Assembly: GCA_039680605.1 (NCBI GenBank)
Contig: JBDKTA010000041.1
Location: 1-64,000 of the forward strand
Source: Planctomycetaceae bacterium
GTDB lineage: Bacteria; Planctomycetota; Phycisphaerae; SM23-33
Reading direction: 5' to 3'
DNA length: 64,000 bases
Position numbers and translations under genes: made by a program
Part shown: in pieces, positions 3,995 through 51,559 of the stretch
Numbering within the stretch: the stretch's first letter is position 1
Layout of the letters: each line of letters starts with the position of its first letter
The notes under the pieces: generated by a model
Databases searched by the model: none
What the model saw: the letters and a program-made list of their open reading frames with translations, nothing else
Told to the model about the DNA's origin: nothing

Positions 3995-4450
3995 TCAATC
4001 GAATACGTACCTTGGATCATAATCGACCTTATGTAGCCGCAGCAATTCGAGGAATTCTTCTTCGAACGTGCGCGCATGATGATGTTGCTCCTGGTCGAGG
4101 ATGTACGCCTTCACCTTTTCCTCATTGGAGGAACTGACGCCGAAGGAACCATACCCGGCCTGCCAGCCGAAGATCCGCTCGCCCGGAAACGTCTCGTGGA
4201 CCCATTTGCTGGATAAGCTCTTCCATTTTCGCAGGGCGTCTGCAACGGCCACGTCTGTGCGGATGGAAAGCAGTCCATGAACGTGATTGTCCGTTCCGCC
4301 GACGGCCAGCGCGCAGCCGAACTCCTGTCGCGCGATCCCGCAGAGGTATTCGTACAGGCGCGTGCGCCAGTCTGGCCGGATGAGGGGACGGCGCTGCTTG
4401 GTGCTAAAGACGACGTGGAGAACGTGATGTGAGAATGTGTGGCCGGCCAT
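3995..4450 (-). CDS. IS200-like / REP-associated tyrosine transposase (RAYT 1)
   Basis: This protein of about 151 residues is a Y1 HUH transposase of the IS200/RAYT type. It shows the N-terminal strand HVVFSTKQRRPLI, the HUH metal motif in DNHVHGLL, and a C-terminal helix KAYILDQEQHH whose Tyr fits the catalytic nucleophile. I chose the ATG at 4450, which yields the usual MAGHTFSHHVLHVVFS start; an upstream ATG at 4510 lies in the palindromic flank. The gene is enclosed by inverted REP units carrying a GTAG tetranucleotide, so it is a REPtron rather than an intact IS200/IS605 element; no tnpB is present. Such proteins cut and join single-stranded REP hairpins. A second, diverged copy lies at 51107-51559. 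Confidence 0.9.
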   Translation of the reverse strand: MAGHTFSHHVLHVVFSTKQRRPLIRPDWRTRLYEYLCGIARQEFGCALAVGGTDNHVHGLLSIRTDVAVADALRKWKSLSSKWVHETFPGERIFGWQAGYGSFGVSSSNEEKVKAYILDQEQHHHARTFEEEFLELLRLHKVDYDPRYVFD

Positions 4451-31630: not shown

Positions 31631-32344
31631 TCACTTGCTCAAGGGGTCGGTCCAACTGATCCCGTCGGAACCGTACAGGCACAAGTGGGCTCCCCAGTCG
31701 CCTTCGAGACCCGGGGCGCCGCAATCGGCCGAGACGGGCTCGCTCGTGACCGACCGGGCCGACAGGTCGAACATCAGGAAGTTCAGCGTGCTGGCATGGC
31801 GGTCGCGGGGGAAGGTCGCCGTCTGGGCGACTTCGCCGAGGTCTTCGCCGTTGCGATAGCAGCCCCACTCGCTTTCGCCGAAGAGAATCGTGTTGGCTTC
31901 GTCGGGGTGACCGTAGTTGCGGCTGAAGGCTTTGGGCGTGTTGTGGTCCACCCAGTAGTTCATGGCATAGCTGGAGCGAAAGACTGTCGCGTCGGCGTCG
32001 ATCGATCCGCCGGCGCCGGCGCCGCACATGACGTTGGCTGTCGCGTCGCCGGGACAGACCAGAGCGTTGGAGGTGTACAGCGACGCCAGCGGCGAGACCT
32101 CGTACCACTTGGTGGTGCTATCCTTGTACGAACCGGGCAGGTACATCTTGTCGCTGCGGTAATTCGTGATCCCGTCGCTGATCACCCGGATGCGGTTGAG
32201 GCATCCGGCCACCATCGACTGCTGGCGGACATACATGAATGAAGGCACCAGGATGCCCACCAGGACGGCAATGATGGCGATGACGACAAGCAGTTCGACC
32301 ATCGTAAAGCCTCGGTCAGCGGATTGGGCAGGAGATTGTCGCAC
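31631..32344 (-). CDS. prepilin-type N-terminal cleavage protein
   Basis: This 237-residue protein has the type IV prepilin/pseudopilin leader GFTMVELLVVIAIIAVLVG (residues 12-30), cut after Gly12 by a prepilin peptidase. A soluble domain with several Cys follows. The late block RHASTLNFLMFDLSARSVT matches the H-x9-D region seen in many planctomycete pseudopilin-like proteins. Planctomycete genomes carry many such proteins whose partners and export role are unclear. No pilus assembly gene is in this window. The next gene upstream is the radical SAM protein, with a 156-nt structured element between them. Confidence 0.85.
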   Translation of the reverse strand: MRQSPAQSADRGFTMVELLVVIAIIAVLVGILVPSFMYVRQQSMVAGCLNRIRVISDGITNYRSDKMYLPGSYKDSTTKWYEVSPLASLYTSNALVCPGDATANVMCGAGAGGSIDADATVFRSSYAMNYWVDHNTPKAFSRNYGHPDEANTILFGESEWGCYRNGEDLGEVAQTATFPRDRHASTLNFLMFDLSARSVTSEPVSADCGAPGLEGDWGAHLCLYGSDGISWTDPLSK

Positions 32345-32448
32345 GGCGGGCTCCCTTCGGGGTGTGGTTGTGCGGAGTCTTCCACAGGTATTCTAGAGCC
32401 CGGCCCTGCCGCGGTCAACTGCGCGCCGCAGTAATGCTTTTGCCATGC

Positions 32449-32604
32449 GGGAAAAGTCGCGGCGGAGGCACCAAGTATTCATCAAAGCCGTTGTGTGGCT
32501 TTGATGAGTACTTGCGCTGGATAGGGCACACGGCACCAAATGAAGAAGTAATTTCACACCACGAAATTACTTCTTCATTCAGTGCCTCGGCCGCGACTTT
32601 TCCC
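32449..32604. repeat. 156-nt three-stem palindromic element
   Basis: Outer arms of 23 nt (32449-32471 and 32582-32604; 22 of 23 pair; left arm starts GGGAAAAGTCGCGGC) enclose two hairpins. Hairpin 1 (32472-32514) has an 18-bp stem with loop GTTGTGT. Hairpin 2 (32539-32579) has a perfect 17-bp stem with loop ACACCAC. The two loops are complementary at 6 of 7 positions. The right arm supplies the last nine codons and the stop of the radical SAM gene. No second copy is seen in this window. Confidence 0.85.
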
Positions 32605-34032
32605 CCATAACTGAGGGCATGCGCGCCGGATGCGGTTGGCGATCCGGGCCGGCAAGGACAGCGCCGGCATGGCGCGGCAGATCCGCCGCCGGCGGCGAAA
32701 GACCTCGGCCGCGTCGAAATCCGCCGTCTCGATGGGCACCGTGGCGTTGGTGCTCAAGAGCCGCGGGCTGGCGGCGAAATCGGCGAACTCGCTCGAGACG
32801 ATGATCCCCTCCGACAGGCACCGCTCCAGCAACCGCGTGCCCGGATACGGCTGGGCGATGTTCACGCAGGGGATGATCCGCCGGCTGAGCTTGCGGATCC
32901 GCCGCAGGTATGCCAGCGACCGCTCGAACCGCTGGGCCGTTTCGCCGGGATAGCCCACGATGACGAAGACCACGATCTGCCGCACCCCCGCGGTGGTCAG
33001 CAGTCGCAGGGCCTCGTACGCGCGGCCGGGGTCGAGCCGCTTGTTCATGATCTCCAGCATCTCGCCGTCGCCGTGTTCCAGCGCGACGCTCAGGGACGTG
33101 CAGTTGGAGCGTGCGATAAGCCCGGCCAGCGGCGCGTCGATCGTATCGATGCGGATTCCGTTAGGCGCCCGCCAGGCCAGCGGTCCGTGGCGCTGTCCCA
33201 GACGGATGAACCCTTCGAGGACTTCGCAGGCGCGCGAGGCGTCGAGGGTGAAGTTGTCGTCCTCGATCTCCAACTCGCGGACCCGGTGCCTGGACATGAG
33301 GTAGTCTACGTCGTCCACGACCCGCTCGGCGCTCATCGCCCGCCATCGCCGCCCGCACACCGGATGTACGCTGCAGAACTCGCAGTCAAACGGACAGCCG
33401 CGAGAAGTGATGATCGATGCGACCCTCCGCCCGCGGGCCGCCCGCGGAGAGAACTCGAAATACGCCTCCAGGTGCGGGATGTCGTCGTCGACGCGCGGAA
33501 GCAGGTCCAGGTCTTCTGCCGCTACGGCCGAGACGTACCGCTGAGGCGGCGCAAGGGGGCGGGTGTAGACGCCGGCGATTTGCTCCAGGGCGGCCCCGCC
33601 GGCGATGGCGGACATCACGCCCTCACCCTCGCCGACGACGATAGCGTGGGCTCCCGCCCGCAGGGCCAGGTCCGGCTGGGTCGAGGGATAGACCCCGCCC
33701 AGGATGACGCGGGCTCGCGGCAGGCGCTCGATGGCGGCAGCGACGAGGCGGTGACCCACGTGGGCCAACTGGCTGAAGGGCACCGAGACGCCCACCAGGT
33801 CCGTATCGCTGCGGAGTTGGGCGACGATCTGCCCGATCGGCTGACCGACCAGCACGCCGCCGGCGAAGGGCTCGCTGTGATCGATCCCGCCGGCGAGGGC
33901 GTCGATGAACTGCACGCGATGTGAGCGGGCCTTGAGCGAGGCGCTGATGCTGCGCAGCCCCAGGCAGTGCGACAGGGCGATCTCCTGGCGGCAGGGGAAC
34001 AGGAACGGCGGATTGATCAGGGCGATATTCAT
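32575..34032 (-). CDS. B12-binding-domain radical SAM protein
   Basis: This 485-residue protein begins with a cobalamin-binding-like Rossmann domain (MNIALINPPFLFP, then VILGGVYPSTQPDLALRAGA and IVVGEGEG), followed by a radical SAM core with CPFDCEFCS near residues 211-219. Relatives methylate or rearrange lipids, antibiotics and other carbon centres, and the target here is unknown. The gene is divergent from feoB with 158 nt between start codons, so it may share the palindromic operator there. The last nine residues (GKSRGRGTE) and the stop come from the right arm of the 156-nt palindromic element. Confidence 0.88.
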   Translation of the reverse strand: MNIALINPPFLFPCRQEIALSHCLGLRSISASLKARSHRVQFIDALAGGIDHSEPFAGGVLVGQPIGQIVAQLRSDTDLVGVSVPFSQLAHVGHRLVAAAIERLPRARVILGGVYPSTQPDLALRAGAHAIVVGEGEGVMSAIAGGAALEQIAGVYTRPLAPPQRYVSAVAAEDLDLLPRVDDDIPHLEAYFEFSPRAARGRRVASIITSRGCPFDCEFCSVHPVCGRRWRAMSAERVVDDVDYLMSRHRVRELEIEDDNFTLDASRACEVLEGFIRLGQRHGPLAWRAPNGIRIDTIDAPLAGLIARSNCTSLSVALEHGDGEMLEIMNKRLDPGRAYEALRLLTTAGVRQIVVFVIVGYPGETAQRFERSLAYLRRIRKLSRRIIPCVNIAQPYPGTRLLERCLSEGIIVSSEFADFAASPRLLSTNATVPIETADFDAAEVFRRRRRICRAMPALSLPARIANRIRRACPQLWGKSRGRGTE

Positions 34033-36388: not shown

Positions 36389-36412
36389 CTTTGTGGCATG
36401 GCCGTCTCGGCC

Positions 36413-36575
36413 ATGCGCTGGCGGGCGTCTCGCCCGCCAGCGGCAAAAGCATGGGCCACACCGGTGCCACGCACAACTTTCGTTGTGCGTGTCCCTGACC
36501 TCAGGGTCGGGGAGCATGGGCGAGACGCCCATGCCACACAGCAAGAGCATGGGCGAGACGCCCATGCCACACGAG
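36413..36575. repeat. palindromic repeats between the Feo and DtxR genes
   Basis: Contains GGCGGGCGTCTCGCCCGCC near 36420, ACAACTTTCGTTGT near 36472 and two tandem 33-nt units (36513 and 36546) built on GCATGGGCGAGACGCCCATG. The block lies between the small Feo gene and the regulator gene. It is not a CRISPR array. Confidence 0.85.
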
Positions 36576-36582
36576 AAACGCC

Positions 36583-37248
36583 ATGACCACGCCGTCCGTT
36601 GAAGAATTGATGGAAAGCCTCTACGAGTGGCAGTTCGAGAAGGATGAATATCCTTCGCAGGCCCTCATCGCCCCCGCGCTGGCCGATGCGACCGCCGCGG
36701 GATACGTCGTCTGCGCCGACGGGCAGTGCCGCCTGACCGAAACCGGCGAGGCCGCCGGACGCGACGTCGTCCGCCGCCACCGCTTGGCCGAGTGCCTGCT
36801 GCGCAACGTGCTGGCCAGCCCCGACGTCGACGCCGACGCCTGCCGGTTCGAGCACCTGCTGCTCAACGGTCTCGACGACCGCATCTGTGCCCTGCTCGGC
36901 CATCCGCGAACCTGCCCGCACGGAAAGCCCATTCCCCAGGGCGCCTGCTGCCGGGCGGCCGCCGAGGAAACCTTCGCCGAAGTCCGCGCCCTCTGCGACG
37001 GACGCCCCGGCGAGAGCGGAACCGTCGCCTACCTCACCACGCGAGACGACCGCCAGGTGCAGAAACTCATGGCCATGGGCGTCCTGCCCGGCGCCGACGT
37101 GCACCTCATCCGTCGCTTCCCCTCCTACGTCTTCCAGGTCGGATACAGCCAGTTCACCGTCGACCACGAACTGGCCCAGATCATCTACGTGCATTGGACG
37201 CCCCCCGCGCCCCAGCGCCGCAGACGCCGGCGCTGGTGGGGGTGGTGA
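36583..37248 (+). CDS. DtxR-type metal-dependent regulator with FeoA domain
   Basis: This 221-residue protein has an N-terminal winged helix (SVEELMESLYEWQFEKDEYP, then LTETGEAAGRDVVRRHRLAE), a dimer and metal-binding domain of DtxR/MntR type (ECLLRNVL, RFEHLL, CPHGKPIP with Cys and His ligands), and a C-terminal FeoA/SH3-like domain (QKLMAMGVLPGADVHLIRRF). It likely represses feoB and perhaps mntH when iron or manganese is plentiful. The FeoA domain in the regulator may also replace the separate FeoA protein, which is missing from the locus. The basic tail RRRRRRWWGW is odd. Start at ATG 36583. Confidence 0.88.
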   Translation: MTTPSVEELMESLYEWQFEKDEYPSQALIAPALADATAAGYVVCADGQCRLTETGEAAGRDVVRRHRLAECLLRNVLASPDVDADACRFEHLLLNGLDDRICALLGHPRTCPHGKPIPQGACCRAAAEETFAEVRALCDGRPGESGTVAYLTTRDDRQVQKLMAMGVLPGADVHLIRRFPSYVFQVGYSQFTVDHELAQIIYVHWTPPAPQRRRRRRWWGW

Positions 37249-51106: not shown

Positions 51107-51559
51107 TCAGTCCCAGACATAGCGCTCATCATATTCGATGTTATGCCGTTTGAGAAACGCTCGGTATTCGTCTTGGAAGGAAATCTTCTCGTGGTGTTCA
51201 GGCTGGTTGAGGATGTAGTCTCTCACCTGCCGAATTGAGGATTCGCTCACGGAAAATGCCCCGTATCCGTTCTGCCAATGAAACCCTGCGTACTGGCGGC
51301 CCTTGGTCTTGATCCATTTAGATGACGCCGTCTTGAGATGTTCCACGATTTCGCTCTGGCTGGTCTTGCGGGACAACAGGAACAGGATGTGGACGTGGTC
51401 CTCGACAGCCTCCAGTTGGAGCGATGGCGAATCGAGATTTCGAAGGATGCCGATCAGGTACGCCTTCAGCTCCTCGCGAACGGAATCAGCCAGGAGCGCC
51501 TGGCGGTTTTTGGTGCTGAAGATCAGGTGAACGAGTACCTTCGAGAGTGATTGCCCCAT
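51107..51559 (-). CDS. IS200-like / REP-associated tyrosine transposase (RAYT 2)
   Basis: This 150-residue Y1 HUH transposase has VLVHLIFSTKNRQALL at the N-terminus, the HUH motif in EDHVHILFLL, KTASSKWIKTKG, WQNGYGAFSVS and the catalytic-type Tyr in VRDYILNQPEHH. It is clearly related to RAYT 1 but diverged across its whole length. Palindromic arrays in inverted orientation lie on both sides, so it is a second REPtron. It sits between tdh and kbl. The gene is full length with intact motifs, so it may be active. No TnpB is present. Confidence 0.92.
   Translation of the reverse strand: MGQSLSKVLVHLIFSTKNRQALLADSVREELKAYLIGILRNLDSPSLQLEAVEDHVHILFLLSRKTSQSEIVEHLKTASSKWIKTKGRQYAGFHWQNGYGAFSVSESSIRQVRDYILNQPEHHEKISFQDEYRAFLKRHNIEYDERYVWD

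Follow-up and report, generated by a model that had tools for sequence, protein, structure and literature searches.

The 64-kb stretch of DNA analyzed here (hereafter, the window) carries a 192-bp element that is very probably a non-autonomous IS66-type MITE with a three-stem core, one of a family of elements of about 190 bp; this estimate covers the explanation as a whole, including the proposed upkeep of the stems after insertion. Judged from sequence features, the elements form a new family of IS66-type MITEs whose core is branched, since their outer arms differ yet remain complementary in two more genera, and IS66-like ends and duplications recur in one of them. The first-pass annotation had offered three readings of the structure: a non-autonomous mobile element, a structured RNA, or a single-stranded DNA recombination site. 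The first is now strongly supported by many copies with differing neighbors, by 8-bp duplications and by IS66-type ends. The recombination site found no support, and the target duplications point to a DDE-type cut.

Structure and boundaries of the window element

A 23-bp stem enclosing two hairpins had been proposed for positions 32449-32604, and both the fold and the exact coordinates were borne out (Table 1). The outer arms pair with one mismatch. The MFE is -100.9 kcal/mol, compared with -46.6 +/- 4.0 for shuffles (z = -13.5); this fold is far more stable than the shuffles, thus a chance palindrome is ruled out for the window element.

When the copies were aligned with their flanks, conservation extended beyond this stem, to GTAATGCCTCAGTCAY-GGGGG at its left side and to CCCCC-N-GTAACTGAGGGGATAC at its right, and the two ends of the element proved to be imperfect inverted repeats, GTAATGCCTCAGTYAY/GTATCCCCTCAGTTAC. 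In the window the ends are anchored on GTAATGC... and on the reverse complement GCATGCCCTCAGTTAT, in agreement with the family ends. Since the 8-bp repeats lie outside these anchored ends, we define the window element as 32431-32622. Exact 8-bp duplications were found in four other copies, at anchored ends GTAATGCCTCAGT... / ...ACTGAGGGGATAC: GCAGACGC (L004), CCCCTGAC (L016), GCCAAACG (L024) and CCCGTGGC (L032). Thus, among the 12 copies with both ends readable, four have an exact duplication and one, the window copy, has a duplication at 7/8, while none of 992 control pairings, in which the left flank of one copy was set against the right flank of another, reaches 7/8. The element therefore has several features of a MITE: a length of 192 bp with no transposase gene, terminal inverted repeats, a duplication of fixed length and dispersed copies. 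In L021, L025 and L032 the core has the opposite orientation with respect to the two distinguishable end types, as recombination between the arms would cause.

The element supplies residues 471-485 and the stop codon of the adjacent radical SAM gene. A contribution to this 3' end had been recognized earlier, but as nine codons; because the element reaches 32622, the last 15 codons lie inside it.

Table 1. Features of the element and its neighboring genes (window coordinates)
Feature	Position	Strand	Basis or remark
Whole element, 192 bp, probable IS66-type MITE with three-stem core	32431..32622	+	Anchored ends and flanking 8-bp duplication
Left target-site duplication GCGCCGCA	32423..32430	.	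Agrees with the right one at 7 of 8 positions
Left terminal repeat, decayed; family consensus GTAATGCCTCAGTCAYGG	32431..32448	+	Alignment of copies
Outer stem, 5' arm GGGAAAAGTCGCGGCGGAGGCAC	32449..32471	+	Fold; paired changes between copies and genera
Hairpin 1, 18 bp (32472-32489/32497-32514), loop GTTGTGT (32490-32496)	32472..32514	+	Fold, copy comparison
Conserved core of hairpin 1, AAGTATTYATCA...TGATRARTACTT			Also in the genus of G023; not recognizable in G005
Spacer between hairpins	32515..32538	+	Fast-diverging, 17% within one subfamily
Hairpin 2, 17 bp (32539-32555/32563-32579), loop ACACCAC (32556-32562)	32539..32579	+	Kept in all three genera
Outer stem, 3' arm GTGCCTCGGCCGCGACTTTTCCC	32582..32604	+	Fold
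Right terminal repeat, decayed; inward consensus GTATCCCCTCAGTTAC, here GCATGCCCTCAGTTAT	32605..32622	-	Alignment of copies
Right target-site duplication GCGCCGGA	32623..32630	.	7/8 identical to the left one
Radical SAM gene, B12-binding-like N-terminus (name from the first-pass annotation)	32575..34032	-	ORF list
Type IV pilin-like (prepilin) gene with its start at 32344 or 32302, located downstream of the element	31631..32344	-	ORF list; N-terminal FTMVELLVVIAIIAVLVGIL in translation

Copies and genomic context

The search for copies covered the assembly of the window (5.23 Mb, 72 contigs) and yielded about 33 near-complete copies, 6 partial copies and solo arms, about 40 in all. The earlier statement that no second copy occurs holds for the 64-kb window, but its contig has two more, at 76664 and 77555. 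The near-complete copies are 78-93% identical to the window copy, which is among the more diverged ones. All copies are intergenic, and their overlap with gene bodies is limited to gene ends. An arm pattern with up to three mismatches detected 81 arms, nearly all of them paired about 133 bp apart; the unpaired arms are due to deletions. The left arm joins the apparent right flank directly at a shared GAGGCA in two loci (L070, L072), and the middle of the core is missing in another (L036). The exact arm pattern had no match in GTDB r220 and IMG/VR.

Gene neighbors differ at every copy. Between divergent genes we found 20 of 38 copies, although such regions make up 25-29% of intergenic bases (binomial p ~0.001; gene calls came from a simple codon-based finder, and two copies extending over a gene end were adjusted by hand in the tally). 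This excess reflects either a target preference or a role, which the sequence does not separate. In other contexts, the core usually lies within ~40 nt of a stop codon. The orientation is balanced, with 6 co-directional copies each way before the two overlapping ones are added. A search for an empty site by gene order, using the radical SAM protein, gave no ortholog, the best relatives being ~24-35% identical.

Being hairpin-rich, intergenic and present in about 40 copies, the elements resemble REP/REPIN sequences, which a RAYT transposase (Y1, HUH) mobilizes by acting on single-stranded hairpins. The genome has 15 Y1 (PF01797) loci, two of them in the window at 4091-4432 (-) and 51203-51544 (-), and two of the 15, L089 (C4:19439) and L090 (C39:119388), are ringed by palindromic repeats of other families, GTGTGGCATGGGCGTCTCGCCCATGC and CACGCACAACGGAGTTGTGCGTG, likely the own REP families of these Y1 genes. 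However, none of the 15 Y1 genes has a three-stem copy in its surrounding locus, and the 8-bp target duplications are at odds with Y1 transposition, which produces none. Three-stem copies do sit between divergent genes, whereas the REP-like family D of this genome has the opposite pattern, usual for such repeats (0 of 48 sites). We therefore regard mobilization by a RAYT as very improbable.

A repeat survey tiled 1.2 Mb of the genome. Further high-copy palindromic families are present in this genome, with seeds such as TATGGAGTGCGGCAGCC, AGCCCCGCCGCTAAC and GGTGGCACAGGCTTTCCAGCCTGTG; the first of these has 0 of 48 sites between divergent genes. In the window, repeats of the CATGGGCGAGACGCCCATG type, readable in frame (GETPMPH-like), occur around gene ends at ~36390-36600.

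Relatives in other genera and covariation of the stems

A BLAST search with the window copy had no match in 39 relatives. With a consensus query, one locus was matched in the genome G023 (Planctomycetales bacterium CSMAG_1105, also matched by a hairpin-1 pattern), where the three-stem design recurs but the outer arm is a different one. Further matches to the hairpin-1 pattern came from a single-hairpin repeat of Planctomyces MAG-38 and, as chance palindromes, from Firmicutes and Acinetobacter; they were not taken as relatives, because any 12-bp palindrome meets half the pattern. The repeat in Planctomyces MAG-38 (L185-L200) is a many-copy simple hairpin, AAGTACTCATCACG...CGTGATGAGTACTT, with 12 bp in common with hairpin 1, by chance or through distant kinship.

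We built a covariance model from eight copies of the window's genome and the G023 locus, and searched 397 genomes of the class. G023 has at least 8 copies and G005 at least 5, both lower bounds because eight candidates per genome were scored; among the eight candidates scored in each remaining genome there was no element. The outer arms are GGGGGAAAAGTCGCGGCGGAGGCAC in the window's genome, GAAGAAAAGAGCAAGTCAGGCACAC in G023 and GCCGGGGAAAACCTCCGGCGGGGACAC in G005; in each genome the partner arm is complementary. Hairpin 2 is recognizable in all three genomes, hairpin 1 in two of them. Pairing holds for 96.6% of the cells in the alignment of nine sequences, both sides have changed in nine pairs, and the pair counts exceed those of all 500 shuffles and all slid controls. 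Both the copies and the stem covariation that the first-pass annotation had suggested looking for in this genome and its relatives were thus found, as many copies with compensatory changes, and the three-stem core is common to three genera of one bacterial family of planctomycetes.

In G023, copies end for example in GTAACCGTTCAGCCCTATGC and GTAACCGTTTAGGCCTTTGCAACCG, and exact 8-bp duplications flank three loci: TAATATTC (L266), AAAGTTTC (L267) and ATTTAGGA (L215). At L224, a second, partial outer arm GAAAAGAGCAAGTCAGGTACATAAAATGA directly follows the right end, perhaps by nested or tandem insertion.

The stable fold, the conserved stems and their compensatory changes between copies and genera would also suit a functional structured RNA, a riboswitch-like leader or sRNA, that has become dispersed as a gene family, and so would a T-G pair of hairpin 1 that is seen in two genera. 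Several observations make this quite improbable. The best Rfam matches are no better than chance and far below the gathering score, which agrees with the earlier remark that no known riboswitch fits. Departures of the G-T and A-C kinds are about balanced (27 versus 20 cells, 17 versus 15 types, one pair in which T-G is widespread being excluded), and this balance is unchanged after splitting by the direction of neighboring transcription. The differing neighbor genes and the lack of orientation bias count against an RNA of this kind and, together with the similar numbers of G-U and A-C changes and the lack of an Rfam match, against the more specific proposal of a cis-acting RNA of the prepilin gene.

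A kissing complex of the two hairpin loops had also been suggested. Six of the seven loop positions can indeed pair in the window copy, and seven copies have fully complementary loops (GTTGTGT/ACACAAC, 7/7). However, the loops do not covary between copies: the mean longest complementary run is 4.29 in real pairs and 4.44 in swapped ones. The relatives have runs of 3-4 and no such complementarity, and hairpin 1 is not recognizable in G005. It is thus extremely improbable that the kissing complex is the working structure.

IS66-type ends and the missing transposase

The ends of the element begin with GTAA (GTAATGCC / GTATCCCC) and are flanked by an 8-bp duplication, both traits of IS66-mobilized elements (PMC12898284, PMC12888890). 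ISDge4, of the ISBst12 group, has the ends GTAACTGCTCAGCA / GTGACTACTCAGCA and an 8-bp repeat (PMC12898284), and the family end GTAATGCCTCAG agrees with the ISDge4 end at 9 of 12 positions. In genomes of the same bacterial family, we found complete single-ORF IS66 elements with ends GTAACTCTTCAGCCGTCTGCAACG (L261, L262) and GTAACACTTCAGCCGTATGCAACT (L260) and no clear 8-bp duplication; the ends of the G023 elements are close to those of such complete elements in relatives. The exact terminal repeat GTAATGCCTCAGTTACGGGG was not present on any IS66 element in the relatives checked. The assignment to IS66-type MITEs rests on the agreement, in two genera, of both the end motif and the length of the duplication.

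These features suggest that the elements were moved by an IS66-family DDE transposase of the ISBst12 (single-ORF) type, which would have recognized the terminal repeats and cut with an 8-bp stagger. Because no IS66 transposase gene was detected in the window's assembly or in G023, we can only infer the autonomous partner; its gene would be no longer, or not, in this assembly, or an incomplete assembly could hide it.

The same ends also occur around other cores. At C25:94229 of the same genome (L077/L162), they are accompanied by a 7/8 duplication, TTGTCAGG/TCGTCAGG, and the core is unrelated, yet again consists of an outer stem with two hairpins. The exact end pattern detected GTAATGCCTCAGTTACGGGGGG-type ends around still other palindromic cores in G001, G006 and G007, and one of these cores (L298) has again two hairpins inside a stem. 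Ends of the GTAATGCCTCAGTTACGGGGG type around different hairpin cores were noted at L290, L291, L298 and L300 in these three genera. Such shared ends around differing cores point to exchangeable hairpin cores within this bacterial family, suggesting a wider MITE set with swapped cores.

The different three-stem core in the same ends at C25:94229 and the other cores in three more genera would also be expected if the core, from the G-run inward, were itself mobile and only sometimes lay within IS66-type ends. About a third of the ends are not recognizable, and the outer arm differs between genera, as such a core would allow. On inspection by eye, however, copies that lack ends have neither a duplication nor a fixed junction at the core boundary; the ends decay gradually, and the duplications lie outside the GTA ends. 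An independently mobile core is therefore improbable.

Unequal decay and a possible role of the core

Within one subfamily of 20 copies, the deviation from the consensus is 2.4% in the stems, 7.9% in the loops and 16.9% in the spacer (stems versus spacer, Fisher p 7e-30), a roughly seven-fold better conservation of the stems than of the spacer that separates the hairpins. The terminal repeats deviate by ~30%, compared with a background of ~41%. Several copies (L005, L017, L018) have decayed ends or spacer and one stem change per ~112 positions. End identities form a gradient among copies and not two peaks, which favors gradual decay.

Simple transposition followed by neutral decay would strike all parts alike, contrary to the rates in stems and spacer. 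Self-templated repair of the palindromes would produce many paired double changes, whereas few are present (15 cells versus 65 one-sided). Gene conversion explains the upkeep of the stems poorly, because the spacer lies inside the element and would travel along. Part of the rate difference might come from deletions that repeatedly removed ends in some copies, and the spacer groups may represent separate source copies. Selection on the stems after insertion appears to be the simplest reading of these substitution patterns.

Together with the placement of 20 of 38 copies between divergent genes, the upkeep of the stems suggests that the structure is kept after insertion. Less surely than the mobilization itself, it appears that selection maintains the three stems at each site while ends and spacer decay. 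The core would then have a role of its own, at the DNA level or in read-through transcripts of either strand, for example as a bidirectional boundary, a terminator or a supercoil-absorbing cruciform between genes. A narrower version is possible but unlikely: that the core, once brought in by IS66-type transposition, is a DNA structure with a role for the host. Selection would then retain it at dozens of sites, the majority of them between divergent genes, where a branched cruciform or protein-binding boundary would separate or buffer the neighboring promoters. If strains confirm this upkeep, the family would be a clear example of mobile DNA whose structure persists once its mobility is gone, and would make it possible to test the function that bacterial palindromes have between divergent promoters.

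Comparison with known systems

The elements share imperfect hairpins with integron attC sites and the structured RNAs of Rfam, but have no match in Rfam, and the first-pass annotation had seen no attC pattern in them. Intergenic palindromic repeats are what they have in common with the REP, BIME and REPIN sequences associated with RAYT, and other such families are present in this genome; the elements differ from REP/REPIN by their target duplications, the lack of association with a RAYT and their tolerance of divergent promoters.

The likeness to the single-ORF ISBst12 group of IS66 (for example, ISDge4) consists of imperfect GTAA-type ends, a TCAG block and the 8-bp duplication, whereas the elements described here are 190 bp long and have no transposase gene. 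Conversely, the IS66 elements examined have no structured core, as model R1 matches nothing in them. Bacterial MITEs, such as MITEPsy1 (100 nt, 18-nt ends, 4-nt duplication; PMC3189936), are likewise short, non-coding and multi-copy, with inverted ends and a target duplication. Relative to them, the present elements are distinguished by an 8-bp duplication, IS66-type ends, and a branched three-stem core whose stems outlast the ends and whose outer stem is replaced in sequence across three genera with its complementarity kept.
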